From Actinoallomurus purpureus (lineage in GTDB: Bacteria; Actinomycetota; Actinomycetes; Streptosporangiales; Streptosporangiaceae), in the NCBI RefSeq assembly GCF_024055795.1, contig NZ_JAMXMY010000001.1:186001-250000 (forward strand): a DNA stretch of 64,000 nucleotides. The letters are read 5' to 3'. This document shows, piece by piece, positions 7,972-50,842 of this stretch (position 1 is its first letter; every line of letters begins with the position of its first letter). Both the position numbers and the translations under genes were made by a program. Below the pieces are notes generated by a model, which had not been told where the DNA came from, searched no databases, and saw only the letters and a list, made by a program, of their open reading frames with translations.

Positions 7972-8517
7972 CTATCTGCCATTCATTCGCGGATACCATG
8001 CTCTGTACAGATCGAATTTCATGGCGTGGCGCCAAGCGATGTCCCACGAATTCAGATGCCGGGCAACCTCTTCAGGAACTTCGGTCCGCTCGAAACCCAA
8101 GAAACGGTTGGACTTGTCGAAACGCAGGAACACCAGCAGCCGGTCGTCGAATATCCAGTAATCATATGGCGGCAAGTCCAACCGCTGGGAGGCGTCGCGT
8201 AACAGGTAGCGGATATCCTCGCCAGCGGCCAGATTGAGAGGCGTATGGGCAATCTCGAACCGGAGGTAGTCGCTTGGCGGGTCGTCGACGACACGCACTC
8301 TCTCAACCCTTTTTCCGGAACCCGTCTGCCTGGACATGAGATCGAGCCATGGGCGAAACCATGCGGTATCCGGATCCGCACCGGCGAGAAATATCTGGAA
8401 CGGCTCGTCCTCTTCGGCGACACCATACGAACGTCTTACCTCCAGGCGGCGAGCCGCGCTCGTGAAGGACGAGAAGAGATCGAGAAAGGCGTCACCGTCG
8501 GCGATCAGGGTCCCCAT
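7972..8517 (-). CDS. DUF6879 family protein
   Basis: This 181-aa soluble protein matches the actinobacterial DUF6879 pattern: FRPWLDLMSRQTGSGKRVERVRVV followed by PPSDYLRFEIAHTP, YDYWIFDDRLLVFLRF, and a C-terminal helix with AWRHAMKFDLYR (shown here in pieces as separate strands and helices). Molecular function is unknown. In actinomycetes this family often sits beside helix-turn-helix regulators or small proteins. Here the 66-aa gene directly upstream ends one base before the ATG, so the two are co-translated. There is no membrane segment. Confidence 0.8.
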   Translation of the reverse strand: MGTLIADGDAFLDLFSSFTSAARRLEVRRSYGVAEEDEPFQIFLAGADPDTAWFRPWLDLMSRQTGSGKRVERVRVVDDPPSDYLRFEIAHTPLNLAAGEDIRYLLRDASQRLDLPPYDYWIFDDRLLVFLRFDKSNRFLGFERTEVPEEVARHLNSWDIAWRHAMKFDLYRAWYPRMNGR

Positions 8518-8518
8518 A

Positions 8519-8719
8519 TCACGCCTGGGGGTCGAAGTCGGCGAGGAGGCGCCTGGGGACTATCACGAAGTTTTCGCCAGGAAGTACATCGCGCAGCTGC
8601 GCCAAGGCCTCTTCGTCGGTGAGCTGATAGCCCTGTACGACTATGTCCCCGGTGTCTGTTTCATAGAGAGACGGGCATGACCCGGCGTTGCTCGTGCTGC
8701 TGAGGAAGCGGAGTTTCAC
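8519..8719 (-). CDS. Small protein upstream of DUF6879, 66 aa
   Basis: The GTG start at 8719 follows a good ribosome site (GGGAGGAC, five bases upstream). The product begins VKLRFLSSTSNAGSCPSLYE and ends with a positively charged PRRLLADFDPQA tail. A longer reading from farther upstream has no ribosome site. The predicted fold is a small alpha/beta unit; I do not know its function. Its stop is one base from the DUF6879 ATG, a pairing I associate with a two-gene actinobacterial module. Confidence 0.7.
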   Translation of the reverse strand: MKLRFLSSTSNAGSCPSLYETDTGDIVVQGYQLTDEEALAQLRDVLPGENFVIVPRRLLADFDPQA

Positions 8720-9091
8720 GATGTCCTCCCGTCGATTGGGTGGCATGCTGAGGTTAGTCTCTCGCACTGACCTTCGCCAGCCATACTTAGCTGACGATGC
8801 TGCTACAGTTGCCGCCCCATACGCCAATACAACGTCGACCAAAACTGCGAGCGACGCCATATCGGACACCAGAGCGCGGTAGGACCATCGTTTTTTCGGG
8901 TTGGAAGCGAATCAGGCGCTTTTTCCCAATCGGCACCCGATAGCGCACTTCAAGCGCGCCCGAGCATCGGCGCCGGGCCGAGTGACCGGCCTCCTCCGGC
9001 ATTGCCGCCGGTATGTTGCCGTGCTGGTCAGAATGCGTCCGGCTGGCAGCCGACCCGGCACGCGGCCCGTCGATCCGTCTGCATCGCCAAG
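8720..9091. other. Intergenic stretch, no gene supported
   Basis: About 370 bp upstream of the DUF6879 pair. It should contain that unit's promoter. Base composition is lower in GC than its surroundings near 8880-8930 (a T run at 8890-8895 and a second at about 8922-8926). No conserved element was recognised. Confidence 0.3.
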
Positions 9092-9187
9092 CGGGGACGG
9101 CTGCCCGCCGACGACACTGCGGGGATCGCCGCCGCGCTGCTGGACGCCTTGGCCGCCGCCCACGACGCCGGGATCACCCACCGCGAC
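9092..9187 (+). pseudogene. Ser/Thr kinase catalytic-domain scrap
   Basis: Thirty-two codons read RLPADDTAGIAAALLDALAA and on to AHDAGITHRD. This is the helix-E to catalytic-loop segment of a Hanks-type kinase (LLDALAAAHxAGIxHRD). The HRD triad is kept, but the following residues (AMAVSVHD) do not give KPxN, and no other kinase motif surrounds it. It is a short relic, not from the two intact kinases at 2.6-6.8 kb, whose equivalent region differs. Confidence 0.55.
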
Positions 9188-9321
9188 GCGATGGCCGTCT
9201 CAGTTCACGACGCCACGCCTGTCACCAGCGGAAACTCGTACACCACCTCCGTGGACGCAACCCCTTTACCCGCCTCGTCCCTTCGGGCACCACATCCGTG
9301 GACGTAACCGCCGCGAGAGGT

Positions 9322-10938
9322 TCAGTTGGGACGGATCGATAGCGCGTGGTGGAACACGTTGCGCGGATCCCAGCGGCGTTTGACCTGCTGAAGCCGTGCG
9401 TAGTTGTCCTTGTAGTAGAGGGTGTGCCATGGAGTGCCCGACGTGTTGTACCGAGGATCGGCCAGGTCCGCGTCGGGATAGTTGATGAATGCGCCGTCGT
9501 CGTCCTCGCCGGCCGGAACGCCGCCGCCACCGGCGTAGAAGTCGCGGTAGAACTCCCGGATCCATGTCAGGTGCCGGGAGTCCTCGGCCGGATCCTGCCA
9601 GCCGGCGAGGAAGCCGATCAGGAAGATCGAGTCACGGTGCGGCATCGCGGTCGTGCCGGGGGAGACGGCGTTGACGCGCCCGCCGTAGGTGTTGATGAAC
9701 AGGCCACCGGACGGATCGTTGTCGCCGGCCCGGGTGAGGTGCCGGTAGGCGGTGGCGATCTGCTGGTCGGTGCAGCGGCGGCGTCGATACCCCGACTTCA
9801 GCTTGAGGCGGCGGTCGAAGGTTGTGGGGTCGTTGATCGCCTGCGTCGCCGAGGCGAGCCAGGGCATGGTGGACGACTGCCGCAACGGCCGTACGCCGAC
9901 GCCGCGGCCGAGCGTGGTCACCAGGTCATCGAGTAGCCGGTCCGCACCGCTGCCGGCGGTTACTTGACCGGAGATGCCAATGGTCTCGCTGGGCTTGCTG
10001 GCGAGGACGAACTCGCCGTAGAAGGCGGCCGCGGGGGAGCCGGGTGCCGAGTTTCGCTCGCCCCATTCCCCATAGTTGCGCATCAGCCTGACGAACGAGT
10101 CCCGGTCGAGTTCCGACCATGGCCAATCCAAGGAGTAGCTCAGGACTGTGGAAGGCGGCCTGGGCAGAAGCCGGCCGGGGTCGGTGCCCTGGGCGTCTGG
10201 GGAGCGGAACCAGTAGCGGGTGACGATCCCGAAGTTGCCGCCCCCGCCTCCGGTGTGCGCCCACCACAAGTCCCGGTTGGGATCTGACGGTTCCCGGGTG
10301 GCCACCACGCTTCTGGCCTTGCCCGACCGGTCGACCACGACCACTTCGACCGCGAACAGGTGGTCGACGGTCAGGCCGTACATACGGCACAGCGCCCCGT
10401 ATCCGCCGCCGCAGACGTGTCCACCTGCCCCGACGCCCGGACAGGTTCCGCCGGGGATGGTCACGCCCCAGCCGAGGAACAGCTTCCGGTACACCTCGCC
10501 CAGCGTCGCTCCCGCCTCGACCATGAAGGCGTTGCGGCGCCTGTCGTAGTCGACCTGCGTCATCGCGACCATGTCGATGAGAATGCGTACGTCCGGGTCG
10601 TCCACGAAGTTCTCAAAGCAGTGGCCGCCGCTGCGCACGGCGATCCGCCGCTTCGTTCGCACCGCTTCGTCGACCGCGCGTACGACGTCCTCTGTCGAGC
10701 CGACCACTCGGATCTGCTCGGGCTTGCCCTGAAAGCGATGGTTGTAACCCCTGAGCGCCAGCGAGCGGTAACGCGGGTCATCCGGGCCCACCGTGACCGA
10801 ACCGAACGCAGAGACGCCTCCGAGCTGCGGAGCGGCCTGTACTGTCGCATGCCAGGAAGCCACGAGCGCGGCTGCAGGACCCGACACGGCAGCTGCCGCG
10901 CCTGCACGCAGAAGGGTGCGTCGGGTGGACTCGACCAT
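9322..10938 (-). CDS. TAT-exported FAD-linked oxidase (berberine-bridge-enzyme type)
   Basis: The ATG at 10938 follows a strong AAGGAGGACGACC site. The N-terminus STRRTLLRAGAAAAV is a twin-arginine signal, so the 538-aa enzyme is exported folded with its flavin. The FAD_binding_4 domain has RSGGHCF near residue 102 and GGTCPGVGAGGHVCGGGYG near 162-180. The His and the first Cys occupy the positions that make the 8-alpha-histidyl, 6-S-cysteinyl bicovalent FAD of BBE-like enzymes. The C-terminal BBE motif (YYKDNYARLQQVKRRWDP) is complete. It oxidises an alcohol, sugar or alkaloid-type substrate, reducing O2 to H2O2; the substrate is unknown. Confidence 0.9.
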   Translation of the reverse strand: MVESTRRTLLRAGAAAAVSGPAAALVASWHATVQAAPQLGGVSAFGSVTVGPDDPRYRSLALRGYNHRFQGKPEQIRVVGSTEDVVRAVDEAVRTKRRIAVRSGGHCFENFVDDPDVRILIDMVAMTQVDYDRRRNAFMVEAGATLGEVYRKLFLGWGVTIPGGTCPGVGAGGHVCGGGYGALCRMYGLTVDHLFAVEVVVVDRSGKARSVVATREPSDPNRDLWWAHTGGGGGNFGIVTRYWFRSPDAQGTDPGRLLPRPPSTVLSYSLDWPWSELDRDSFVRLMRNYGEWGERNSAPGSPAAAFYGEFVLASKPSETIGISGQVTAGSGADRLLDDLVTTLGRGVGVRPLRQSSTMPWLASATQAINDPTTFDRRLKLKSGYRRRRCTDQQIATAYRHLTRAGDNDPSGGLFINTYGGRVNAVSPGTTAMPHRDSIFLIGFLAGWQDPAEDSRHLTWIREFYRDFYAGGGGVPAGEDDDGAFINYPDADLADPRYNTSGTPWHTLYYKDNYARLQQVKRRWDPRNVFHHALSIRPN

Positions 10939-11175
10939 GGTCGTCCTCCTTGAGGCGATCACGTGCGATCGAGCAACTGCCTCGCCTTCCACCGCCGCAT
11001 CGCCCGACCGCGATCTATGTACGGATCTTTGAAGGCTAAGAACCTGCCGTCCGGCCGGAAAGGGAGCCATCACCCCTTCCTGCAGGTGGAGCCACCCCCA
11101 AAGGATCCGGGGGCTGGCCCGCTTCTCTCCACCGCGGCGATTTGGTAATGGGCCCCTCGCCGCGCATTAGGGCTC

Positions 11176-11850
11176 GTGACGTCCACACGTTCGCCGCCCT
11201 GGCCGGCGGCGAACGGGTCCTGGAAGGACGGAACCGATAGGGGATGGCGGGATGCTGTCGGCATCCTGTCCGAAGGCGTGCCCTACGCCTCGTACGCTGC
11301 CGCGCAGAACAACACCGGCATCAATGACGACTCGGCACCGAGCGCCGCGAGCTTTGATGGCGGCTCGCTGAGTTTCTCGGCGCAGGCGCTGGCCGATAAT
11401 GGCCTGGTCTCCGGCGAGCAGAAGACGATCAACGGTGTCACCTTCACCTGGCCGGCTACCGCGGTTCCGGACAACATCGTCGCCAGCGGCCAGGCCGTCC
11501 CGGTCAGCGGATCGGGCAGCACGCTGGGCTTCCTCGGGGCGTCGAACAACGGAACCGGCTCCGGGTCGGGCACGGTCGTCTACTCCGACGGCACGACCCA
11601 GAGCTTCGCGCTCGGGTTCGCCGACTGGTGGTCCGGCAGTGCCATCCCGGGGACGTCGATCGCGGCCACGATCCCGTACCTCAACAACGGAAGCGGAAAG
11701 CAGAACCAGACCGTCCATGTCTACTACGCGAGCGTGCCGTTGAACCCGGCGAAGACCGTGCAGTACGTCGTGCTCCCGCACGTGACCGACGACGGGAAGG
11801 TCGCGCAGATCACCGCGTTGCACGTGTTCGCCATAGGAATCGGAGGCTGA
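11176..11850 (+). pseudogene. Orphan C-terminal domain of a secreted glycoside hydrolase
   Basis: From about 11300 the reading matches the beta-rich C-terminal domain found in large secreted actinobacterial glycosidases: INDDSAPSAASFDGGSLSFS, then SGSGSTLGFLGASNNGTGSG, SFADWW and a final VFAIGIGG. A GTG at 11176 keeps the frame open, but its first 35 residues look random, and there is no signal peptide or catalytic domain. It is probably the 3' remnant of a much larger gene, next to an insertion element at 11923. A free-standing secreted lectin-like protein is unlikely without a signal. Confidence 0.65.
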
Positions 11851-11922
11851 CAGGCTGACCATCCCGCGGTCGCGCCGCGCCGGGACCGGTGCGGCGCGAC
11901 CGCGGGAGCCATGGTCGCCGCC

Positions 11923-12440
11923 TGTGCTGCTCGAAAACTCAGCTGAGGCCTTGACCTGGAGATTTGGCTGCGGGTGGTTGCTCCTGCTGGGATCCTCGCG
12001 AGATGTCTCTCGCTCTTGCTTACATGATCGTCAGGTTGATGGAGCCGCTGCGGTTCTTGGTCCGCGACCGGGACACCAAGTTCATCGCCGCCTTCGATGA
12101 GGTCTTCCGCGCCGCCGGCACCCGGATCATCAAGACTCCACCGCAAGCCCCGCGGGCGAATGCGATCTGCGAGCGGATCGTCGGAACGCTCCGCCGGGAG
12201 GTACTCGACCAGATGCTGATCTTCAACCACAGGCATCTGTCCAAGATCCTCACCGAATACGCCGAGCACTACCACGAGCATCGTCCGCACCAGTCCCGAC
12301 GCCGGCGACCGCCCATCAGCAGCCTGGCTGACCTCCGCTCCATCCAGCGACGACCGATCCTCGACGGCCTGATCAACCAGTACCACCGCGCTGCGTGAAA
12401 CCTGCAGGTCAACGACCGAACCCAATTTTCGAGCGGCACA
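11923..12440 (+). mobile_element. Internally deleted insertion sequence with terminal inverted repeats
   Basis: Imperfect inverted repeats bound the element: 11920-11958 and 12405-12443 pair at roughly 29 of 39 positions, with conserved outer GCCTGTGC, then GCTCGAAAA, and inner TTGACCTG. Ends written as TGT...ACA give 518 bp. Inside is a single transposase reading on the + strand that lacks the first part of the catalytic core. No target-site duplication was evident. It is best read as a non-autonomous deletion derivative of a roughly 1-kb IS with an integrase-type transposase. Confidence 0.65.
12003..12398 (+). pseudogene. Truncated DDE transposase inside the IS derivative
   Basis: 131 codons. 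The first residues, MSLALAYMIVRLM, resemble the N-terminus of this transposase family. They are followed at once by the second half of the catalytic core: FLVRDRDTKF with the middle Asp, PQAPRANAICERIVGTLRRE with the catalytic Glu, and HYHEHRPHQS. The C-terminus DGLINQYHRAA corresponds to GGLLHEYAQVA in the remnant at 6.9 kb. The first catalytic Asp and the helix-turn-helix are missing, so it cannot transpose by itself. Confidence 0.75.
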
Positions 12441-12458
12441 GGCTACGAGCGGGCTGCC

Positions 12459-13259
12459 TCATCTGGCGAGACGGGCTTCCGTCCGGTCCGAGGCTGGGAA
12501 GAAGTGAGTGACCGGCCGCTCGAGCAGCCGGCCGTCGAGATGGATATCGACCTTCTCGTTGTAGAAGCTGACCAGCCCGGCGATCGGCAGCAGGCTACGG
12601 GTCGGGAAATCATAGGACCAGGCCAGATCCGGATGGGTGGTCCCGCCCACCTCGACCGACCAGTAGCCGGTTGTCCTGCCCTTGTACGGGCAGGCGGTCA
12701 CCGTGTTCGTCGGCCGCAGGTACCCGAAGTCGATCTCGGTGCGGTTGAGGTAGTAGCGGGTCGGCAGGCCCGTCTCGAACACCATCACCGGTGCAGTGGA
12801 CTCCGCCAGGACCGTCCCGTCGAGTTCGACCCGTACAGGCCGGGTCGAGCGCAGTGCGTCCACCCGGACGTAGGGGTTACGCGGGTGGACGAAGACCTCC
12901 TCGTCCTCCTCGAACCAGGCATCCAGCTTGTCCCATTCGAAGCGGACCATCCCCGACAGGCCCTCCAAGGAGTCGTCGGTGTAGACCCGACCGGCGGCCG
13001 GGCGGCTGATGTCGTCGACCTTCAGGCCCAGACTGCGGGCGGTGCCGCGGCTCAGCTTGTGCGGACGCTGCTCGTCGACGAGCGCGGACGGGTCGACGTC
13101 GCCGATCGGGATGTAGTACTGGGGGTAATAGGGCCACTCCCACAGGTACACCGCGCGGGTCGTGTCCAGCACGACACGGCCGCCCAGCATGGCACGGATC
13201 CGGCGTGGCACCGGCTCGATGTGATCGACCGGCGCGATCATTCTCGGAACGTTGGACAC
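12459..13259 (-). CDS. DUF427 domain protein
   Basis: This 266-aa protein contains two DUF427 beta-rich units: GRVVLDTTRAVYLWEWPYYPQYYIP is the first half, split here by PIGDVDP, and GTVLAESTAPVMVFETGLPTRYY with CPYKGRTTGYWSV the second. DUF427 proteins are common in actinobacteria, cyanobacteria and fungi; their biochemical role is not established. The GTG at 13259, after an AAGGGGGTG site, is the likely start. The frame continues open upstream into a broken TPR gene, but that part has no homology to the family. No partner genes are nearby. Confidence 0.8.
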   Translation of the reverse strand: MSNVPRMIAPVDHIEPVPRRIRAMLGGRVVLDTTRAVYLWEWPYYPQYYIPIGDVDPSALVDEQRPHKLSRGTARSLGLKVDDISRPAAGRVYTDDSLEGLSGMVRFEWDKLDAWFEEDEEVFVHPRNPYVRVDALRSTRPVRVELDGTVLAESTAPVMVFETGLPTRYYLNRTEIDFGYLRPTNTVTACPYKGRTTGYWSVEVGGTTHPDLAWSYDFPTRSLLPIAGLVSFYNEKVDIHLDGRLLERPVTHFFPASDRTEARLAR

Positions 13260-22232: not shown

Positions 22233-22532
22233 CTAAGTGGTCCCGTTCGTAAGTCCTTCGGGGGTTCTCAGGCTGCGACTGGTGGTTCGCCTACATCGAA
22301 GGCGAACTGGCCACCGGAGACCGGCTTCCCCTCATCCGGCTCCGCTACGGCGGATCAGCCTCCATCTGGGGATTCGGCCTCTACCTCGCCAGCAGCGGCA
22401 AATACGAGAACCAGATCCTGCCCACCGGCATGACCGCCGGCACCCCCCCAGAAGCACTCGACTGCGCGTGCGGCCTCTACCTCGGCCACTGACCACTCAA
22501 CCCCCGAAGAACTTACGGCTCAGACCACTTAG
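22233..22532 (+). mobile_element. Small inverted-repeat element (MITE-like)
   Basis: Terminal arms 22233-22266 and 22499-22532 are inverted copies matching at 28 of 34 positions (outer CTAAGTGGTC, inner CGTAAGT and CTTCGGGGGTT). The 300-bp unit carries only a 71-codon scrap without a start. It sits in the gap just before the RiPP promoter. It is best explained as a non-autonomous or decayed insertion sequence; no target duplication was seen. Confidence 0.65.
22277..22492 (+). pseudogene. 71-codon coding scrap inside the inverted-repeat element
   Basis: The reading DWWFAYIEGELATGDRLPLI leads to LRYGGSASIWGFGLYLASSG and TPPEALDCACGLYLGH, then TGA. It has clear coding character but no start codon. 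I associate similar sequences with proteins encoded on actinobacterial transposable elements but cannot name the family. It fills the space between the terminal repeats. Confidence 0.45.
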
Positions 22533-22645
22533 CGATAACCGACCCCGTGTCCCCTTTGGCGTGACACGTACCGTTTCTCCGGCGATGGCGCCCCCGAGAC
22601 TGCATCACCGTGACGCATCCACCGGCCTGCTGCTCAACGGGACTA

Positions 22646-22674
22646 TTGCCGGATTAGCGGTCCAGAGGTTATGG
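22646..22674 (+). promoter_or_regulatory. Probable sigma-70-type promoter of the RiPP cluster
   Basis: TTGCCG at 22646-22651 and TTATGG at 22669-22674 are spaced 17 bp apart. Transcription would begin near 22682, leaving a leader of about 40 nt before the precursor ATG at 22724. It lies in a locally AT-richer stretch downstream of the inverted-repeat element. Confidence 0.45.
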
Positions 22675-22723
22675 TCCAGAAATTCGCCGCTTTCAGCGTC
22701 GACCGAAACGGAGGGTCCCCACC

Positions 22724-22876
22724 ATGGACGACAAGCTGAAGGGCCTGGTCCTGGATGAGGCAGCCGCGGAGAAATTCGCCGCCCGGCTGCCGGACGAGGG
22801 CATCATGCGGGCAGGTTCCGTTGCTCAGCTGGATACCAGCAGCCCGGCGGACAGCGAGGTCAACCAGACGCATTAG
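22724..22876 (+). CDS. RiPP precursor peptide, 50 aa (YcaO-TfuA cluster)
   Basis: The ATG follows GGAGGG at 22710-22715. The peptide starts MDDKLKGLVLDEAAAEKFAA, an acidic/amphipathic leader-like helix, then RLPDEGIMRAGSVAQLDTSS and a polar tail PADSEVNQTH. It has no cysteine, so YcaO-driven azoline formation would need Ser/Thr, whereas backbone thioamidation needs no side chain. The plausible core is the Ser/Thr/Asp/Gln-rich last 19-20 residues. It is the first gene of the cluster, 98 bp ahead of the YcaO gene. That it is the substrate is inferred from position, size and leader-like character. Confidence 0.75.
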   Translation: MDDKLKGLVLDEAAAEKFAARLPDEGIMRAGSVAQLDTSSPADSEVNQTH

Positions 22877-22912
22877 CCGTCACTCGGTGGCGGTCTCCCA
22901 GTGACGACACGT

Positions 22913-22957
22913 CGGCGAGGATCGGCGGGCTGTACGAATACGCCGCGGTCCTCGCCG
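22913..22957 (+). promoter_or_regulatory. Hairpin between precursor and YcaO gene (possible attenuator)
   Basis: CGGCGAGGA at 22913-22921 pairs perfectly with TCCTCGCCG at 22949-22957, and inner GGCG/CGCC can extend the stem. RiPP operons often place a partial terminator here so the precursor mRNA exceeds the enzyme mRNA. No U tract follows. The role is inferred. Confidence 0.45.
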
Positions 22958-22974
22958 GTGATCCTGGTTCTTGG

Positions 22975-24216
22975 GTGAGTTCCATGCAGCGCATGAATTC
23001 CAGCGTCCGGACGGTCCCGCTCGAAGAGACGCTCAGGAAGGCCAAGGTCATGGCGGTCGCTCTCGGTATCACCAGAGTGACGGATACGACCTGGCTTGAT
23101 TGCGTCGGGATACCGGTCTTCGCGGGCATTCGCCCTAATGCCATGCCCGGATCCCTCTGTGTCAACGCGGGAAAGGGCGTGCTGGCCGACGAGGCCCGCG
23201 TCGGTGCCTACATGGAGGCCATCGAGTTCACCTTCGCCGAGTACCGGAACCGCACCGTCGATGTCATCACGTCGACGCCCAGACATGTGTCCACCCAGGA
23301 AGACGCCGACTTCGAGTTCGTCGACCTGTGCCCGATCATCGGACGGAAGGTCGCCGCCGACGGCCCCTTGGCTTGTGTCGAGGCCGAAGACATAGTGACG
23401 GGCGGGCGACTCCTGGTACCCGCCGAACTCGTCTTCTCCCCTTATCCGGAAAACCCCGGACAACAGGTCTTCGGAACGAGCACGAACGGTCTCGCCTCCG
23501 GCAACACCGTCGAGGAGGCGACGGTCCACGGCCTCGCCGAACTGATCGAGCGCGATGTCCAAGCCCATAACTTCATCCACGACAGGTCGCGGTATGTGGA
23601 GTTCGACACGCTCCCACCCGAGGTCGACCTGTTGCTGCGACGGATCGACGACGCGGGCTTGACCCGGGTGGTCCGATACACGCCGAATGCCTTCGGGCTT
23701 CCCTTCTTCCAGGGGTTCATGCTCGAGCCCACCGACGAAGCCCCAATCGCGATAGCGGTCGGATCGGGCCTGCACCCGTTCAAGGACATCGCGGCGGTCC
23801 GAGCACTGGCCGAGGCCGCACAATCACGGCTGACGTACATCCACGGCGGTCGCGACGACATCATCGATCGGCATCGGTATTTCGCCCGCTTCGACGGAGA
23901 ATTCGAACGGCGGACCATTGGGCGGGCGAGGCAGCGGATCCAGGCCGACGGTGACACCGTCCGCTATTCCAGCGTCCCGGACGGGGCGGGGGGCGTGGCG
24001 AGCATTGAAGACGCGCTGACATGCCTCATCGACATCCTCAACAAGAACCGGATCCGCCAGATACTGCGTGTCGTCCTCACCGGCAAGGATTCGCCGCTGT
24101 CAGTCGTGAGAGTCATCGCCCCGAAACTGGAGTCGTTCCAGCCGGAACTGAAGCGGGTCGGTCCCAGGCTTCTCAACGTCATGGATCTCGTCGAGGACAC
24201 GCGTGACGCCCCCTGA
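22975..24216 (+). CDS. YcaO-domain cyclodehydratase/thioamide synthetase
   Basis: This 413-aa YcaO protein has ATP/Mg-binding motifs: EAIEFTFAEY near residue 80, HGLAELIERDVQAHNF near 187 and AAVRALAEAAQSRLTY near 277. The C-terminus PLSVVRVIAPKLE resembles the VRVIxPGLE ending of stand-alone, TfuA-associated YcaOs. YcaO enzymes phosphorylate a peptide amide oxygen; with TfuA and a sulfur donor they make thioamides. GTG at 22975, ATG at 22984 and ATG at 22993 are all possible starts, and none has a strong ribosome site. It overlaps tfuA by 14 bp. No separate E1-like/Ocin-ThiF partner is present. Confidence 0.93.
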   Translation: MSSMQRMNSSVRTVPLEETLRKAKVMAVALGITRVTDTTWLDCVGIPVFAGIRPNAMPGSLCVNAGKGVLADEARVGAYMEAIEFTFAEYRNRTVDVITSTPRHVSTQEDADFEFVDLCPIIGRKVAADGPLACVEAEDIVTGGRLLVPAELVFSPYPENPGQQVFGTSTNGLASGNTVEEATVHGLAELIERDVQAHNFIHDRSRYVEFDTLPPEVDLLLRRIDDAGLTRVVRYTPNAFGLPFFQGFMLEPTDEAPIAIAVGSGLHPFKDIAAVRALAEAAQSRLTYIHGGRDDIIDRHRYFARFDGEFERRTIGRARQRIQADGDTVRYSSVPDGAGGVASIEDALTCLIDILNKNRIRQILRVVLTGKDSPLSVVRVIAPKLESFQPELKRVGPRLLNVMDLVEDTRDAP

Positions 24217-24886
24217 ACTCATCCTGTTCGCCGGGCCCACGGCCTATGGCGTCGACCGGCGACTTATCTTCCGTATGGACGTGTCGGTACGCCCACCCGT
24301 GCGACGTGGAGACGTCGAAGCCCTGGTGCGGGACGCAGGCGGCGTGCACACGATCGCCATCGTCGATGGGACCTTCCACAGCTATCCGTCCGTGGGTCAC
24401 GCAGAGATCCGCGAGGCAGTCGAGGCAGGTTGGACGGTATGGGGGCTCTCCTCCATGGGAGCACTGCGCGCCGCGGAAATGCGTCACCTAGGTGTCCGTG
24501 GGTTCGGCGACGTATATGCCAGATATGCCGCCGACCCAGAGTTCGACGATGATGAGGTCGCCGTACTCCATGCTTCGGAGGCTCCCTACCGGCCATTGTC
24601 AGAGCCGATGATCCACATACGCGGCTTCCTGGAGGACCTCGCCGAACGAGGCATCATCTCCCAGGAAGCATGCCGATCGGTCGCCTTGGACCTCAAGCAG
24701 AGGTGGTATGCCGAACGAACTCTGCGTACCGTCCACGACAGTCTCAAGAGAGTCGACGTACGGGAGTGGGACGTTGTCCGATCAGGACTCGCCGACTTCG
24801 GCTCCTTCCGCAGTAAGACTTCGGACCTCGTGCGCTTCATGACGGAGCAGCCGTGGAAGACGGGATCGCGATGCGAACGGAATTGA
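24203..24886 (+). CDS. tfuA: TfuA-like protein
   Basis: This 227-aa protein has TfuA signatures: FAGPTAYG at the N-terminus, WGLSSMGALRAAEMRHLGV near residue 75-93, GFGDVYARYA and FDDDEVAVLHASEAPYRPLS. TfuA works with YcaO in installing backbone thioamides (methyl-coenzyme M reductase and thioamidated RiPPs), probably recruiting the sulfur source or boosting catalysis. The GTG start lies inside the end of the YcaO gene, and its own stop lies inside the next gene, so all three are coupled. Confidence 0.92.
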   Translation: MTPPELILFAGPTAYGVDRRLIFRMDVSVRPPVRRGDVEALVRDAGGVHTIAIVDGTFHSYPSVGHAEIREAVEAGWTVWGLSSMGALRAAEMRHLGVRGFGDVYARYAADPEFDDDEVAVLHASEAPYRPLSEPMIHIRGFLEDLAERGIISQEACRSVALDLKQRWYAERTLRTVHDSLKRVDVREWDVVRSGLADFGSFRSKTSDLVRFMTEQPWKTGSRCERN

Positions 24887-25650
24887 CCGCGCGGGACCTG
24901 CTGGATGAGATCGGCGGGCTGCCCTTCGTGGACTCGGCATTCCGGCCGCCGACGCTTCTGGCGCTGGCGGCCGCGAGACGACGTGCGGCCGAACCCGAGG
25001 CGTTTTCCCGGCTCGTCGACTACCTCGATCCGGCTAACGCGGCGGGGATCTTCGCACGCAACGCACGCAGCACGCTTGAAGATTTCGCCTGGACGCCGCT
25101 CCCGGAGGATCGGGTGTCCGTGGTTTTCGAAGCGACCGCCGCGATCACCACCTTCCTGCCCGAATGGAAGCCGCTGTTCGACATACCGGTCCGCTACCGG
25201 AAGGTCGAGGGAGACTACGCAAGCGGCTCCTACGCGTTGATCCCGCAGACGATCTACTTGGGGGAAGCCGCCTTCTCGTCGCCTCGATCGCTCAAGGAAG
25301 CCCTGATCCACGAGCACGCACACGTCTGGCTGACCTTCATCGCGGAGATATCGGATCTACAGCGTGATGGCGCGCCGTCACGGTTCGTACTTCCATCTGG
25401 AACTTCAGGCCGATCCCTGCGAGCCGTTCTGCTGGCCGGGCATTTCGCGGCGGCGGTGGCCCGCTTCTACCTGGACTCAGGCGCGGAGGACCCTGTTTCC
25501 CTGAGCCGTGCCGCCTACATGATGGAATACCTCGATGGCTGTGTCAGGACGGCGATGGGCGATCCGTTCTTGACTCCGCTCGGCGAAGCGGTGCGTGGGA
25601 GATTGGCGTCGTTCTCCGCGTCGCTGCGGACGGCCCGCCGCGCGCGGTGA
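24853..25650 (+). CDS. HExxH metalloprotein of the RiPP cluster (candidate peptide beta-hydroxylase or protease)
   Basis: This 265-aa protein has HEHAH at about residues 155-159 in ALIHEHAHVWLTFI, within an all-helical C-terminal half. The length and layout resemble the HEXXH-motif family linked to peptide-modifying clusters, some members of which are now regarded as 2-oxoglutarate/Fe-dependent peptide beta-hydroxylases rather than proteases. GTG at 24853 or ATG at 24871 could start it; both overlap tfuA. It ends the cluster. Either hydroxylation of Asp/His/other core residues or leader cleavage is possible; no other maturation enzyme or transporter is present. Confidence 0.75.
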   Translation: MEDGIAMRTELTARDLLDEIGGLPFVDSAFRPPTLLALAAARRRAAEPEAFSRLVDYLDPANAAGIFARNARSTLEDFAWTPLPEDRVSVVFEATAAITTFLPEWKPLFDIPVRYRKVEGDYASGSYALIPQTIYLGEAAFSSPRSLKEALIHEHAHVWLTFIAEISDLQRDGAPSRFVLPSGTSGRSLRAVLLAGHFAAAVARFYLDSGAEDPVSLSRAAYMMEYLDGCVRTAMGDPFLTPLGEAVRGRLASFSASLRTARRAR

Positions 25651-26074
25651 AGACCGCGCGAACAGTCCTGATTATCACGTGCACACTTACCCGCGGTGGC
25701 CGCGCCCGCCCGGAGCCGGTTTCAGGCACCGTTGCCAGGGCGCTCCACGGCGAAAAGCGGCGAGCCCGAACAGGGCAGCGGTCCGCGTCACCGTCGTCGC
25801 GACGCTTCTGAATTCCCCGCTCCGGCACGGCGCACCTACGCGCGACCCGCGCTGGAACGACGCGCACGCGGCGGTGACCCGCCTTCCGTTCCCCACCGAC
25901 CACCTGCACGTGACGATCCTCTACGCGAACCCCGATCGCCGACGAACCGCCCAGGGTGCCCATCGTTGACGCTCACGACGGTTGGGAAGTGAGATCGAAG
26001 AGGCTCTCCTGGCCGACGATGTCGTGCTCATAAGCCTTGGGCGCGCCTCCCAGCGCGTCTTGGTGTGTTTCAGG
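25651..26074. other. Intergenic stretch after the RiPP cluster, no gene supported
   Basis: This 424-bp stretch lies between convergent units. A + strand frame reaching 25969 has a faintly coding tail (HAAVTRLPFPTDHLHVTILY) without a convincing start or ribosome site; I do not accept it as a gene. No clear terminator hairpin was found. Confidence 0.35.
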
Positions 26075-26725
26075 TCAGGGCTGGACCTGCCGCTGCGTCA
26101 CCCGTGTGGCGAGGCGCGTGACGGCCACGGTCGCGATCCAGCAGAGGTACGCCCAGTCGCCGGCGAACGCGACGGGGATCGACACGGCGAAGCAGGCGGC
26201 GATGGCGCCGCTGCGCAGCATCGCGTCGGTGAAGCGTTCCGGCGGAGTGCCTTGGGCGGCCAGTCCGGCCCGTCGTACGTGCCAAGCCATCAGGAGAAAC
26301 AGCAGGCTGGTCACCGTCTCGATCAGCGCGTAGAAACCGAAGCGCAGCTGGAACGCCCCGTCGCCGGCGAGTATCTTCGTGGCGAACGGGATGAGCACGA
26401 CCATCAACAGCCACAACCCGTTGAGCGCGCTGAGGATCCGGTCGAGGCAGCGCAGGCCACGGAACACCTTGCGGTGCGCGGACCAGTGGGCCCAGATGAC
26501 CACGAAGCTGATCAGGAACGCCTTGTACTCGGGTCGCGCCTCGAGCGCCGCGTGCCACAGTTCGGCGTTGGTCCCCCCCTTGGGAACGGGCAACTCCAGA
26601 GCTAGCAGGGTGATCGCGATGGCCACGACGGCGTCGGTGAACAGCATCATGCGTTCGACGACGGGACCCTCGTGCTCACTCTCGGGCTTCTCCACGGATG
26701 ACTCGATCGCCGTCACAGCGGTCAC
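26075..26725 (-). CDS. TMEM175-like (DUF1211) potassium-channel-type membrane protein
   Basis: This 216-aa protein has about six transmembrane helices. The first carries the family motif RMMLFTDAVVAIAITLLALE near residues 25-45, equivalent to the RxxxFSDxVxAIAxTLL filter helix of TMEM175/DUF1211 proteins. Helix two has FLISFVVIWAHWSAHR. Bacterial homologues form tetrameric K+-permeable channels. Asp replaces nothing essential in the FTD/FSD triad, a common variant. It is a single gene converging on the RiPP cluster. Confidence 0.88.
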   Translation of the reverse strand: MTAVTAIESSVEKPESEHEGPVVERMMLFTDAVVAIAITLLALELPVPKGGTNAELWHAALEARPEYKAFLISFVVIWAHWSAHRKVFRGLRCLDRILSALNGLWLLMVVLIPFATKILAGDGAFQLRFGFYALIETVTSLLFLLMAWHVRRAGLAAQGTPPERFTDAMLRSGAIAACFAVSIPVAFAGDWAYLCWIATVAVTRLATRVTQRQVQP

Positions 26726-43199: not shown

Positions 43200-43640
43200 G
43201 GCACTCTTCCCCCGATGCCATGCCCATAGTGGTCAGATCGTCGCGGTCCCGCCAGCGATACCGCAGAAAAGCATGACCGCACCGCGCCCGAAGCCGATGA
43301 GCACCGCGTCGCCGTCACCGCCGGCCGCCAGGTGCACTGAGTACGGGCGACACGGGCCGGACGGGGTCGGGCTGCGGCAGGCGGCCCGGAAGCTGCCAGT
43401 CGAAAAGGCGGCGACAGTGGCATGGATGCGTCCGAAGCGGCCGCTCGAGATCCCTTGTAAACCCGAAACACGGACTTTTGACGTCAGAAGACGGCCGTTT
43501 CACCATCGTCGAATGACGTCCACCGCCGGCCTGATTGCGGTCGTAGAGGTTAACGAGGAATGCGCTAAAAGTCCAGAATATACAGGCGTGGGACTCGCGT
43601 GCTATTTCTGTACCAACGGCGGGGAATCTTTGGAGATGCG
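43200..43640. promoter_or_regulatory. Divergent region upstream of the giant operon
   Basis: This 441-bp region separates the M48 unit from the giant + strand operon. Its right part (about 43530-43600) is distinctly AT-richer, with gaatatacagg and taaaagtcc, and is the likely promoter. Short minus-strand frames here have Arg/Ala/Pro-rich low-complexity sequence and are not accepted as genes. Confidence 0.4.
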
Positions 43641-46600
43641 ATGGCGGATCTTCTCGTGGTCCCGGTAAGGCTGGATGCGCTCTGTATCGACATCGACACG
43701 GATGTCGCGGGTCCGATGGCCGACTTCAGTCAATTGCCATATGTCGACCCCAAATCGCGGCGTGACGACAATCCAGATACTCCCTATCTCAGCGAAGCGC
43801 TGCTTCCGCTCCCATTCCAAGATCAGAATTTCCGGCTCAAGGCCGGTGTGCATCTGCATTGGGCGCTTCCCGACGCGTTGACCCGGATGGGGCAGGACGG
43901 CGGTGACACGGCGGTTCCCGCGGTGCCGGACCGCTGGCTCGTCACGCGCTCCCGGGACGGTGTGATCGAGGGCCAGTGGGTCATCGAGAGCGACTTCCTG
44001 GCCGGCCCGGACGATGTCGGCGGCGGGGTCACCTTTCCCGTACCGGACGCCGTGCCGTACCGCCGCCTCGGCCGCACGTTGCCGCTGGCCGCCTGGAGCC
44101 CGGACGGCGCCGGCGAGCGGCTTGCGAAGGTCACCGCCGTCGGCTACGGCGAACCGTCCTTCGCGGCCTTCTATCCGAACTGTCACAGCGTGTTCGGCTT
44201 CCACGACGGGGCCTTCACGGGCGCGCCGCCGGCCGGTGTGGCGTACGACCTGGTCGGCTGGCACTCCGATCCCGCCCAGGACGTCCTCGCCCAGATCACC
44301 GGCGACGACTGGCGGCAGCGGATCGGCGACCTCGGCTGGTCGGTGCCGGACGGGGCACCCCGGCCGACCCGGATCGTCTGCTACGCCCGGCTGGCCTTCG
44401 CCCCCGGCGCGCGGATCGCCAACCCGCTGCTGCTCGCCTCCCGGACGAGCGACGTCGGCGTGTACGTCGGCAGCACCGCCACCGAGGCGCTGGCCGCGCA
44501 CCTGGGCGCCGTGCTGCAGGGCATGGATCCCGACACGGCGGAGAACCTCCTGGAGGCGATCTCCTTCGCCGATGAACTGGAGGCCAGCCCGCTGGACGTC
44601 GGCGCCAAGCTGGCCGAGGCCCGGCACGCCTCCACCTTCCGGCCGCTCCCTTCGGGCCTGCTGTGGACCGTACGGCGCCAGGACGCCGCGGACGCCACCG
44701 CCGAGCAGCGGCAGGCCCGTGCCGCGCTCGCGCTGACGCACGAGATGGGCGACCTGCTGAACCTGCTCAACACCGCGCAGGAGCGGTACGACCAGGCGGA
44801 GCGGGAGCTGCTCAACCTGCGCGAGCAGTTGTTCGCCGACTGGTACAAGTACCTGCTCTGCGCGTATCCGTACGAGACCCGCCGGGACACCTATCCCGAC
44901 CCCGACGAGGTCCGGCACTACCTCGAACGGCAGATGGCCCGGCTCGCGGACCTGACCACCCGTACGGAGGACCCCGGCACCGGCATCGCCGCCGAGCTGG
45001 CCGCGGCCAAGGCGGCGCTCGAGTCCGCGCTCGCGGCGTTCAACGCCGCCACCGCGCGGCCCGCCGGCGCCGAATACGTCCTCGACCGGGTCGCCGCCCC
45101 GCAGTTCTACCTGCCGTCCGAACCCGTCGTCCTGCTCACCGGCGGCATCGCCACCCCGTCGGATCGCTACGGGCACGATGGAGCGGACGAACCCGGCGGC
45201 CGCCTGGCCTGCCAGGTCGTCTCGGTCGGCGACCCGGCCAACCCGGCCGAACTCCTCGGCCGCGTCCAGCCGCTCGGCCTGGGCGTGGCCGGGTGGAACC
45301 ACAACCCCTGGCATCCCGTGCTGATGCAGTGGGAGGTGGAGTTCTTCCCGGCCGCGCAGGGCAACAACCTCGATCCCGAGGTCCACGGCTACACGAGCAC
45401 CTACATCACCGCCAACTACGACCTGACGCCCGAGGACGTGGAACTGCGGGCCAGACCGGGACGCGACATCCCGGACAAGGGCGCGAACGTCTACACCGGG
45501 ACCGTCGTGCTCTCGTCCAGCGCCCGGCCGGTCCTGTCGGCCCGCATCCTGCGTTATCTCGCGAGCTGGATCGTCGCGCCGTACAACACCGCCAACACCA
45601 CCGAGGTGAGCCCGGAGGAGTTCCAGAAGGCGCCCGACGCGGTGCTGGACTGGTACGCCGCGAACGGGACCGACGACCGCATACAGATGCTCGTCACCCT
45701 CTACCAGCACCTGGCGGCCGACGAGGGCGACGGCCTCTCGCAGGTGCTGGGCGGCCTCAACGACGCGCTGCTCATGCGCCGGCTCACCCGGCAGCTGCCC
45801 GTCGCCGACCCGCTCGGCTTCCCCGACTACCGGCGGTTCGCCGACCAGGTCGCGGCCGCCGTCGGCCAGGAGACCAGGCACGCGCCGCATCCGCTCAGCG
45901 ACTTCAACCCGATCCGGGCGGGCGCGATGCGGCTCCGGCGGCTCCGCGTCATCGACAACTTCGGCATCGCCTTCCCGATCGACGTCAGCGACCCGATGAC
46001 CACCACGCAGCTGTCGGTCCCGGGTCGTTCCGACTGGGTGGCGATGCTGCCCCGGCTCACGCAGCCCGCGCAGCTCGCCGCCCGGTGGCTGGACTCCGAT
46101 CACGAGATCCGGCAGATGAACGACGTGCCGACCACCTCGCCGGTCTGCGGCTGGATCGCTCCCGACGACCTCGACGGCGGGCTCGCCTTCTACGACGCGG
46201 GCGGCGCGTCGCTGGGGCAGCTCCTCGCCCTGCCGGATCCGCTGGAGGCCGGCAAGGCCCGCTGGCGGGCCGCGCCCGGCACCGGTGCGGAGGCCGTGAC
46301 GGGCATCCCCAACCCCTACCTCCGGGAGCTGGCCGGCCGGCTGCGGGACCTCGGCCCGGACGCGCTCGGCGAGTTCGTCACGCGGCTCGACACCGACCTG
46401 GCCGGGATCGAGCCGGCGGACTACGCGGATGGCGCGCTGACCCTGCGCCCGCTCGCCGTCGTGCGCGCGGAGGTCGACCTGCGCCTGATGGGGCTGCCAG
46501 CGGTCCACCAGGACTGGAACGTCTTCCGCCAGGACATGCGACGCTCCAGCAGGGACACCGACGACGCACCGCTGGTGCGCTTTCCGGTGCGGGTCGGCGC

Positions 46601-47054
46601 GGCCGCCCAGCTCGACGACGGCCTGGTCGCCTACTGGGACGAGGGCTGGACGCCGCACTGGTCGACCGACCATCCGCTGCTCGAGGTGGCCGTCGGCCTG
46701 CCGGCCCGGCGCCTGACCATGCTGGTCGACCCGCGTGCCCCGGTCCACCTCACCTCCGGGATCCTGCCGGCCAAGGCGATCGGGATCCCGCCCGAGCAGT
46801 ATCGCGACGCCATGGCGGCCCTGCGGCCCGCCTACTTCGTCGCGCCGATCCTGACCGACGGCGACCACCTGGCCGTGCCCGTACCGGACGAGCCGGGCCA
46901 TGAGTGGATCTGGCGGGCGCGCGAGCCGGACCCGGCCGGCTGGATCGAGACCCCGATCGACGACCCCCGCCCCGACGCCGGGTTCCCGGTCGCGCCCGCC
47001 CTCCGGGAGGGCTACCTGATCCCGCGCCCCATCCCCGAGAGAGGCACGCCGTGA
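43641..47054 (+). CDS. Giant unknown protein 1 of the six-gene operon, 1137 aa
   Basis: The ATG at 43641 follows GGAG within ctttggagatgcg. The protein begins MADLLVVPVRLDALCIDIDT and soon has the distinctive segment FRLKAGVHLHWALPDALTRM. It lacks a signal peptide, transmembrane segments and any enzyme motif I know. Residues about 372-473 form two likely coiled coils (LLNTAQERYDQAERELLNLR; ARLADLTTRTE then AAKAALESALAAFNAA). Trp/Tyr/Pro-rich regions elsewhere suggest beta structure. Its stop overlaps the next start (GTGA). It may be a structural subunit of a large particle; function is unknown. Confidence 0.75.
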   Translation: MADLLVVPVRLDALCIDIDTDVAGPMADFSQLPYVDPKSRRDDNPDTPYLSEALLPLPFQDQNFRLKAGVHLHWALPDALTRMGQDGGDTAVPAVPDRWLVTRSRDGVIEGQWVIESDFLAGPDDVGGGVTFPVPDAVPYRRLGRTLPLAAWSPDGAGERLAKVTAVGYGEPSFAAFYPNCHSVFGFHDGAFTGAPPAGVAYDLVGWHSDPAQDVLAQITGDDWRQRIGDLGWSVPDGAPRPTRIVCYARLAFAPGARIANPLLLASRTSDVGVYVGSTATEALAAHLGAVLQGMDPDTAENLLEAISFADELEASPLDVGAKLAEARHASTFRPLPSGLLWTVRRQDAADATAEQRQARAALALTHEMGDLLNLLNTAQERYDQAERELLNLREQLFADWYKYLLCAYPYETRRDTYPDPDEVRHYLERQMARLADLTTRTEDPGTGIAAELAAAKAALESALAAFNAATARPAGAEYVLDRVAAPQFYLPSEPVVLLTGGIATPSDRYGHDGADEPGGRLACQVVSVGDPANPAELLGRVQPLGLGVAGWNHNPWHPVLMQWEVEFFPAAQGNNLDPEVHGYTSTYITANYDLTPEDVELRARPGRDIPDKGANVYTGTVVLSSSARPVLSARILRYLASWIVAPYNTANTTEVSPEEFQKAPDAVLDWYAANGTDDRIQMLVTLYQHLAADEGDGLSQVLGGLNDALLMRRLTRQLPVADPLGFPDYRRFADQVAAAVGQETRHAPHPLSDFNPIRAGAMRLRRLRVIDNFGIAFPIDVSDPMTTTQLSVPGRSDWVAMLPRLTQPAQLAARWLDSDHEIRQMNDVPTTSPVCGWIAPDDLDGGLAFYDAGGASLGQLLALPDPLEAGKARWRAAPGTGAEAVTGIPNPYLRELAGRLRDLGPDALGEFVTRLDTDLAGIEPADYADGALTLRPLAVVRAEVDLRLMGLPAVHQDWNVFRQDMRRSSRDTDDAPLVRFPVRVGAAAQLDDGLVAYWDEGWTPHWSTDHPLLEVAVGLPARRLTMLVDPRAPVHLTSGILPAKAIGIPPEQYRDAMAALRPAYFVAPILTDGDHLAVPVPDEPGHEWIWRAREPDPAGWIETPIDDPRPDAGFPVAPALREGYLIPRPIPERGTP

Positions 47055-47227
47055 CACCGCCCAAGATAAGGCTCGAGCTGACGATCCCCGAGGTCAACCA
47101 GATCCTGGAAGCCCTCGGACGGTTGCCCTACGCCGAGGTGTACGAGCTGATCGGCGGCCTTCAGCAGCAGGCGCAGCCGCAGATCGGCCTGGGCCCGGTG
47201 CCGGCACAGGCCGAGGCGTCGGCATGA
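47051..47227 (+). CDS. Small helical protein 2 of the operon, 58 aa
   Basis: The GTG overlaps the upstream stop by 4 bp, and the TGA overlaps the next ATG by 4 bp. The sequence KIRLELTIPEVNQILEALGR then LPYAEVYELIGGLQQQAQPQ fits two short helices around a conserved LPY turn. I associate this EVNxILxALGxLPxxxVxxLIxxLQxQ pattern with small phage-encoded proteins, though not with a defined function. Such size and position suit an adaptor between large subunits. Confidence 0.7.
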   Translation: MTPPKIRLELTIPEVNQILEALGRLPYAEVYELIGGLQQQAQPQIGLGPVPAQAEASA

Positions 47228-49536: not shown

Positions 49537-49567
49537 ACCGGACGAAATCGAAAGTACGGGGTGAGTG

Positions 49568-50842
49568 ATGCCCGCCAGGAAGCGCACCCGCTTGCAGCGA
49601 GAGATCGACGACCTCAGCTCGATGAGCGGTGGACTGCCCAAGGAATACGCCAAGATGTCCCGGAGGCAGACCCTTCAGGCGGAGCGGGCGCGCAAGCAGA
49701 AGGCCGCGGCGGACGCGGCGGCCAAGGCCGAGGCGATCCGCGCGACGTTCATGGCTCAGCGCAAACCCACGGGAGCGGCCCTCGGCGAGCGCGGTGACGG
49801 CTCCTTCCACATCTCATTCGTCCAGATGGGCCAGGGCGACTGCACGATCATGAGTACCCCGGACGGGAAGGTGATCCTCGTCGACTGCGGCACCAACAGC
49901 CAGGACGAGGAGAAGACCGAGGACTACAACCCCCGCGTGCGCGACGAGCTGACGGCGCTTCCCTTTCTGCGCAACACGATGAGCATCGACATAGTGATCC
50001 TCAGCCATCCGGACAAGGATCACTACAACCGGCTCGACACCATGCTGCCGAAGGGCTACACGGCGCATACCGTCTACCACAGCGGGACCATCGGCCATTA
50101 TCACGCCGGTTCGAAATGGGCACGCAACCGGATAACGGACGAGACGCTGATCAAGAAGGTCGTCCTTACCCAGGACGGGAACAAGGGCGAGAGCACCCTC
50201 GCGGGCAAGCCAATCGAACCGGCCTTCGGCGCCGAGCAGTTGGAGAGGCTCGACGGGACGAACGGGCTCCGCATCGTGATCGAGGACAACTGCCTCATAA
50301 CGCTGCTGGCCGCGAGCGTGGCCACGGACTACGTAGGCGATGACGACACCGCCGACCACCGGAACCGGGGCAGCATCGTCACGCTGATCGAGCTCTTCGA
50401 CCGGACGGTGACGCCGACGAAGACGAGAAAGATCCTGCTCTGCGCGGACGCCACCCGCAGCACCGAGGCATTCGTCCTCGGCGACGCCGGCCGCGCGGCC
50501 CGGCTCGCGGGCGTCGAGATCGTCCAGGCCGGTCACCACGGCAGTAACGTGACCTCCTCCGGCCGGCTCTGGGTGGATCAGCTCAAGCCCACCGGCTGCG
50601 TGATCGTCAGCGCCGGGAAGGTCGGGATGCCCAACCATCACCTTCCGGGCTGGGCGGTGATCAATCGCTGGGTGCAGCGATTCGAGGACAGCAAACGGGT
50701 CAAAGACGCCACCGCCCACCTCGTGTCCGGCTGGGACGACAACACGATTCCGCCCTCCCTGGAGGCGAGGGACGTCTACCAGCCCGTCTACGCCACCGGC
50801 TCCAACGGCACCAGGACCTTCACGATCAAGGTGGCGCCATGA
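49568..50842 (+). CDS. ComEC/Rec2-like metallo-beta-lactamase-fold hydrolase, protein 4 of the operon
   Basis: This 424-aa protein has residues ~20-60 as a Lys/Ala/Glu-rich helix (ERARKQKAAADAAAKAEAIR). The MBL fold then starts at ISFVQMGQGDCTIM. The metal site is ILSHPDKDHYNRLD near residue 147, with later QAGHHGSNVTSS near 320 and VGMPNHHLP. These match the soluble ComEC-type MBL family (HxxxDH). The ATG at 49568 follows GGGGTGAG. It hydrolyses an unknown, perhaps nucleotide or nucleic-acid, substrate. It is the only recognisable enzyme of the operon. Confidence 0.88.
   Translation: MPARKRTRLQREIDDLSSMSGGLPKEYAKMSRRQTLQAERARKQKAAADAAAKAEAIRATFMAQRKPTGAALGERGDGSFHISFVQMGQGDCTIMSTPDGKVILVDCGTNSQDEEKTEDYNPRVRDELTALPFLRNTMSIDIVILSHPDKDHYNRLDTMLPKGYTAHTVYHSGTIGHYHAGSKWARNRITDETLIKKVVLTQDGNKGESTLAGKPIEPAFGAEQLERLDGTNGLRIVIEDNCLITLLAASVATDYVGDDDTADHRNRGSIVTLIELFDRTVTPTKTRKILLCADATRSTEAFVLGDAGRAARLAGVEIVQAGHHGSNVTSSGRLWVDQLKPTGCVIVSAGKVGMPNHHLPGWAVINRWVQRFEDSKRVKDATAHLVSGWDDNTIPPSLEARDVYQPVYATGSNGTRTFTIKVAP

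Follow-up and report, generated by a model that had tools for sequence, protein, structure and literature searches.

A 'YcaO cluster' described in Pseudomonas (PMC8719888) runs in the order putative precursor, YcaO, TfuA and 'unknown domain protein', and this is also the order of the locus studied here, a short plus-strand operon in the 9.2 Mb genome of Actinoallomurus purpureus, which encodes a 50-residue open reading frame (ORF) followed by a YcaO, a TfuA and an HExxH protein. The operon lies within a 64,000-nt stretch of contig NZ_JAMXMY010000001.1 (positions 186,001 to 250,000), which was analysed as a whole and is called the window below. The 'unknown domain protein' occupies the position that the HExxH gene holds in the Pseudomonas loci found in this study. 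The described cluster has additional ubiquitin-like, E1/ThiF-like, major facilitator superfamily (MFS) and methyltransferase genes, whereas the window is without these and has a different core; the passage devoted to the cluster neither assigns it a function nor gives a precursor motif or identifies an HExxH protein.

In the std cluster of Streptomyces thermodiastaticus (PMC13174530), a YcaO-TfuA pair and an iron oxygenase likewise act on one small core, but there the oxygenase is an MNIO with a partner protein, the core reads SNKEWQE, and the cluster as described also encodes an MFS permease and a peptidase-carbamoyltransferase. The pfl and pos clusters (PMC12636437) resemble the window in that an alpha-ketoglutarate (aKG)-HExxH enzyme, PflC or PosC, acts in the C-terminal part of the precursor; they differ in their NHLP leader and MNIO-nitroreductase partner, in having no YcaO-TfuA among the pfl genes listed in that report, and in carrying a Gln run and ARMD in place of the H-x-(S/A)-N-N motif described below. 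The thiovarsolin (var) cluster (PMC6511847) is, like the window, an actinobacterial YcaO-TfuA cluster with no cluster-specific protease, but its varsoviensis precursor has a repeated core, and it bears heme-oxygenase-like, amidinotransferase, ATP-grasp and MFS genes, with no HExxH gene mentioned in the account of the cluster; the repeat is not absolute, as the family includes one non-repeating precursor. The curated profiles closest to the window pair are those of the YcaO-TfuA system that forms thioglycine in McrA (PMC5589413), which for YcaO also provides the closest solved chain by sequence; that system, however, is archaeal and acts on a large enzyme subunit rather than a small peptide, and its curated cut-offs are missed by the window proteins. 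No account of the window's precursor family was found in the literature searched, which did not extend to subscription papers, and the supplementary files of PMC6511847 and PMC8120280 may hold such peptides.

We conclude that the locus represents a real and conserved kind of ribosomally synthesised and post-translationally modified peptide (RiPP) cluster, already glimpsed in Pseudomonas, and that the window holds a divergent minimal form of it. Our preferred reading, to which we assign a probability of roughly 0.7, is a ribosomal peptide operon whose product would be thioamidated by YcaO-TfuA and then oxidised by the HExxH oxygenase; it is built on the genes observed, their homology and order, a predicted fold and co-occurrence. 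An earlier sequence-only reading had proposed a thioamidated and possibly hydroxylated peptide. This is still the best-supported product and now has a conserved precursor behind it, but the window proves to be a reduced family member with a motif-less core.

Results

The operon comprises the following features.

22710..22715, plus strand: GGAGGG, probable ribosome-binding site of the precursor gene, read from the sequence; ends 8 nt before ATG 22724
22724..22876, plus strand: precursor gene, 50 residues, no Cys, assigned by family-profile match; leader LDEAAAEKFAARL, then DEGIMRAGSVAQ, then divergent tail LDTSSPADSEVNQTH
22984..24216, plus strand: YcaO (PF02624, E 3.5e-54); ORF opens at GTG 22975
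24203..24886, plus strand: TfuA (PF07812, E 1.5e-35); 14-nt overlap with the YcaO end
24871..25650, plus strand: putative aKG-HExxH-type oxygenase, with HEHAH as residues 153-157 when numbering starts at GTG 24853; overlaps the TfuA end

The three enzyme genes overlap one another, and all their frames read open. Because many relatives start M-x-R-M-(T/S)-S-S and M-x(n)-G-G-(L/V)-P-F, the true starts of the YcaO and the HExxH protein are probably ATG 22984 and ATG 24871 rather than the upstream GTGs. The adjacent ycaO and tfuA genes are the arrangement by which YcaO-TfuA thioamidated RiPP clusters are recognised. The sequence-only reading had called a Cys-free 50-residue precursor, the three enzymes and the overlap of the last three genes, all of which are borne out by the features above and the family matches below; it had also called a promoter, for which a sigma-70 scan of 22300-26100, a type of scan that performs poorly on actinobacterial promoters, gave no plus-strand site and one minus-strand site, at 25547.

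A single scan of a genome collection with a two-sequence YcaO alignment yielded 31 related loci, labelled as Actinomycetota, Pseudomonadota, Myxococcota, Acidobacteriota, Cyanobacteriota and Bacteroidota. TfuA directly follows YcaO in all 31, and candidate precursors are listed in 29 of them, in most cases a small ORF just upstream of YcaO with a leader like LDxxTAExFxxxLxDE (in L097 and L104 it lies upstream of the MFS gene, and in L084 it is divergently transcribed). A profile of 15 family sequences, from which the window's and L084's precursors were left out, matched the window ORF at E 1.3e-9, and the runner-up among all 1111 ORFs of the window reached 6.8; both the leader and the DE-G-x-M-x-AG segment are present. 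The search for a precursor-like gene in related clusters that had been proposed as a check on the sequence-only reading thus finds one conserved. With the window precursor included in the alignment, the sole match at E <= 10 in the genome was the window ORF itself, and a second precursor of the same family there was rejected. Five distant precursors (L100, L101, L105, L106 and L108) were chosen by eye and position; none was found in L102 or L103, the former on a contig that stops ~0.6 kb past TfuA. Together with those of the window and L114, 31 precursors are listed.

Cys is missing from 27 of these 31, so its absence, offered earlier as a distinguishing trait, holds for the window precursor but is not special to it; azoline formation at Cys is ruled out by the same absence. 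The window core is single copy, with no repeat seen within the 50 residues, in keeping with the earlier view that it is unlike the repeated thiovarsolin-type cores. Its D-E-G-x-M-R-A-G-x-V segment recurs in actinobacterial relatives whose loci pair YcaO with TfuA but contain no HExxH gene. Elsewhere, the precursors of L100 (5666-5956), L101 (2650-3258) and L108 (3644-3910) apparently contain two leader-core units each (GLVASGAVSEADNNN, GLVASGAAIESENN and similar), preceded in L101 by a long Lys/Ala-rich N-terminus. The Streptomyces xanthochromogenes precursor (L080, 5755-5898) has a repeated, Cys-bearing GIQNVC core, and past TfuA in this locus (7974-13190) lie genes that by eye resemble a nucleotidyltransferase and an acyl carrier protein, possibly part of a larger related cluster.

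The sequence (S/A/D/E)NN occurs after residue 18 in 21 of the 22 listed precursors with an HExxH gene versus 1 of the 9 without (L101), and V-x-H-x-(S/A)-N-N is found in 20 listed precursors, every one of them HExxH-bearing. Plasmid precursors found after this count read HEANNN and HNANND. Those of L117 and L118 were assigned by position, annotation and tail motif; with the precursor profile they rank first and second of 638 ORFs, at non-significant values (E 0.53 and 1.2). The H-x-(S/A)-N-N tail is absent from the window precursor, which ends in AQLDTSSPADSEVNQTH. The real oddity of the window is this: a core without the motif that accompanies the HExxH gene in its clade.

The HExxH protein scores 41.0 bits against TIGR04267, the NCBIfam aKG-HExxH hydroxylase family, one bit over the cut-off of 40, and has no Pfam match; all 18 aligned HExxH members match this family at E <= 0.01, two plasmid relatives falling under the cut-off (28.2 and 39.4 bits). 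In the predicted structure the motif sits in a ChlB-type fold, and SjiH and the aKG oxygenase domain of ChlB head the solved structural matches, far ahead of the rest; a sequence search of solved chains found none. Fold and family together point to an aKG-HExxH oxygenase. The protein retains 25 of 26 columns conserved in 10 chosen relatives and is nearest to that of Streptomyces sp. SID9727 (L088; 46%), on long branches, its own terminal branch measuring 1.54; its amino-acid make-up is unusual. HExxH relatives occur in 3 of 8 genomes of the genus and 18 of 341 of the family (the window's own included), and of 394 genomes searched at class level three gave a match, one of them the window's own. 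Among 17 regions around HExxH relatives, TfuA adjoins HExxH in one (L026), where all that resembles YcaO is a short fragment; in L072 a very weak HExxH match (E 0.017) adjoins TfuA.

The window YcaO is 60% identical to that of Actinomadura rupiterrae (L084), and its nearest solved sequence is MJ1094 (6pe3, E 2.1e-26); TfuA has a solved relative in 6xp8 (E 7.1e-22). Of the columns near-invariant in 18 chosen relatives, YcaO retains 81 of 82 and TfuA 45 of 48. Both miss the McrA-glycine thioamidation cut-offs (213.3 of 365 bits for TIGR03266; 139.8 of 235.2 bits for NF033432, ThioGly_TfuA_rel). TfuA relatives are present in 84 of the 341 family genomes, but identity drops with a clear break below a top group at 57% (A. 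rupiterrae) and 39-46%. In the YcaO tree, from which the L107 sequence was excluded, the window clusters without firm support with actinobacterial YcaOs from HExxH-less loci (L080, L084, L110).

Of the 31 loci, 20 have an HExxH gene; ThiF homologues accompany it in all of these but L088 and L100 (18), and MFS homologues in all but L100 (19). The 11 HExxH-less loci, some of them on short contigs, gave ThiF in one (L108) and MFS in none. HExxH-bearing clusters often also have ThiS and a cupin or spermidine-synthase-like protein. In representatives, Pfam names ThiF plus Rhodanese, MFS_1 and, for the last gene, Cupin_8/JmjC_2 (L082) or Spermine_synth (L094), with no match at 0.001 for the ThiS-like protein. 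Streptomyces L088 and L114 have the order precursor, YcaO, TfuA, HExxH, MFS, and two plasmid records are annotated hypothetical, YcaO, TfuA, hypothetical, (MoaD/ThiS in one,) ThiF, MFS, cupin. A search of the 64 kb of the window for homologues of these accessory proteins of the relatives (ThiS, ThiF, MFS, cupin and spermidine-synthase-like) gave none at E <= 0.001. Judged by gene content, the window is a reduced member of a precursor family in which most clusters with an HExxH gene have ThiF and MFS genes as well. This agrees with an earlier remark that the cluster has no transporter; for the decarboxylase, lanthionine enzyme and second protease said to be missing as well, not all neighbours were scanned.

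Of 398 genomes in the Pseudomonas genus group, 7 gave a match to the YcaO clade at E <= 1e-20, all above 400 bits; in the Streptomyces group 56 of 392 did so, only 2 of them above 400 bits, and among plasmids 2 of 72,556 records matched at E <= 1e-40. Three Pseudomonas records have genes split over two frames (the L089 precursor, the L090 HExxH gene and the L107 YcaO), through error or decay; these were counted as present. Sister YcaO-TfuA families (L071, L073, L115, L116) have divergently coded candidate precursors with a GLVxxA motif, and L115 and L116 also bear HExxH.

Pfam names four genes near the operon (alcohol dehydrogenase, aldehyde dehydrogenase, TMEM175 and glycosyl hydrolase 15), and Rfam gave no match at gathering score. 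About 5 kb upstream, with other genes between, a ferredoxin and reductase fusion lies beside a cytochrome P450 (14264-17260). At 43599-56956, five large plus-strand genes stand in a run that includes a 1444-aa DUF6603 protein, a 770-aa Laminin_G_3 protein, 1151-aa and 596-aa proteins without a Pfam match at 0.001, and a 425-aa protein with beta-lactamase-fold matches only, under cut-offs.

Discussion

In the model we favor, the enzymes would recognise the conserved N-terminal half (LDxxxAExFxxxLxDE) as a leader; YcaO would activate a backbone amide with ATP and TfuA would deliver sulfur to form a thioamide, perhaps near D-E-G-x-M-R-A-G-x-V, after which the HExxH protein, as an Fe(II)/aKG oxygenase, would oxidise residues of the tail. 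In the relatives the H-x-(S/A)-N-N motif would most likely supply its target, either the His or the two paired Asn residues; the window enzyme would act on a different residue, within LDTSSPADSEVNQTH. A similar clue, according to part of another report, pointed to a Pro target that was later confirmed (PMC13060819). Sulfur supply, leader removal and export would fall to genes elsewhere in the genome. We infer thioamidation from the pairing of YcaO with TfuA, for which there are precedents in print (PMC5589413, PMC13174530). Likewise inferred are the position of the thioamide, the oxidation and the residue it affects, the sequence of steps, the sulfur source and export.

Several observations weigh against this reading. 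The window itself breaks the co-occurrence: it has the HExxH gene but not the motif, so which residue would be oxidised there can only be guessed. L101 shows Asn pairs although it has no HExxH gene. The sister-clade Streptomyces L115 and L116, outside the count, combine YcaO, TfuA and HExxH with candidate precursors in which no Asn pair occurs. If the rule is widened to any NN beyond residue 18, 2 of the 9 HExxH-less precursors (L101, L108) carry it; the residue class of the rule was picked after the sequences had been seen; the count leaves out L102 and L103, which have no HExxH gene and yielded no precursor; and 18 lineage picks, split 8, 1, 1 and 8, give a Fisher p of 0.003 that is uncorrected for shared descent. 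The A/G/S-Gly segment is absent from 3 of the 31 listed precursors (L084, L097, L104) and altered in the plasmid precursors, so that a Gly thioamide is weakly supported and was rejected as a firm site. Finally, the window has no ThiS/ThiF relay or MFS exporter among the homologues sought in its 64 kb.

The absence of ThiS, ThiF and MFS homologues and the loss of the core motif could also mean that the cluster is a decaying relic, as could the long HExxH branch, the unusual make-up of that protein and, in the three enzyme genes, a GC content at third positions (0.71-0.81) below that of many called neighbours. We consider this unlikely, given four open frames, three of them overlapping, the conserved columns retained in all three enzymes, and five actinobacterial relatives (L080, L084, L085, L086, L110) that likewise have no ThiF or MFS match and keep YcaO-TfuA. 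On the strength of those columns the window looks functional yet altered, with leader and DEGxMRAGxV retained, the tail changed and the accessory genes absent, whether through a shift in specificity or through early decay. One could also envision a family of ribosomal metallophores in which the thioamide and a beta-hydroxylated His or Asn of H-x-(S/A)-N-N bind metal and MFS exports the product, the window lineage having swapped its tail for one containing Asp, Ser, Thr and His while keeping both enzymes, but we regard this as a long shot.

For the HExxH protein, oxidative backbone cleavage leaving a C-terminal amide, rather than simple hydroxylation, is an alternative of some weight, though not the one we expect: PflC and PosC are reported to do both on their own peptides (PMC12636437), but ARMD, their trigger, occurs in 0 of the 31 listed precursors, and PesO, another family member, is reported in the portion consulted to hydroxylate only (PMC13060819). 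That the protein is instead an ordinary zinc protease removing the leader strikes us as very improbable. The HExxH motif itself, weak Foldseek matches to M. jannaschii selecase (E 0.3 and worse), the ChlB fold having been called reminiscent of zincin proteases and PflC being described as proteolytic without its leader (both PMC12636437) would fit a protease; against one, the ChlB and SjiH matches lie far above all others, the family is named for hydroxylation, and the gene tracks the core tail, whereas HExxH-less relatives retain the leader.

The preferred reading, thioamidation followed by oxidation, links two little-explored kinds of peptide modifier, YcaO-TfuA and aKG-HExxH enzymes, through one small conserved precursor. 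The precursor family is widespread yet uncharacterised, with members in actinobacteria and as far afield as Pseudomonas, Vibrio, a cyanobacterial bin and two plasmids, and the window is an odd, stripped-down member of it. The co-occurrence of tail motif and HExxH gene offers a direct and cheap handle on the oxygenase target, with natural HExxH-less clusters as built-in controls, and the window provides a test case for whether the oxygenase can follow an altered core.
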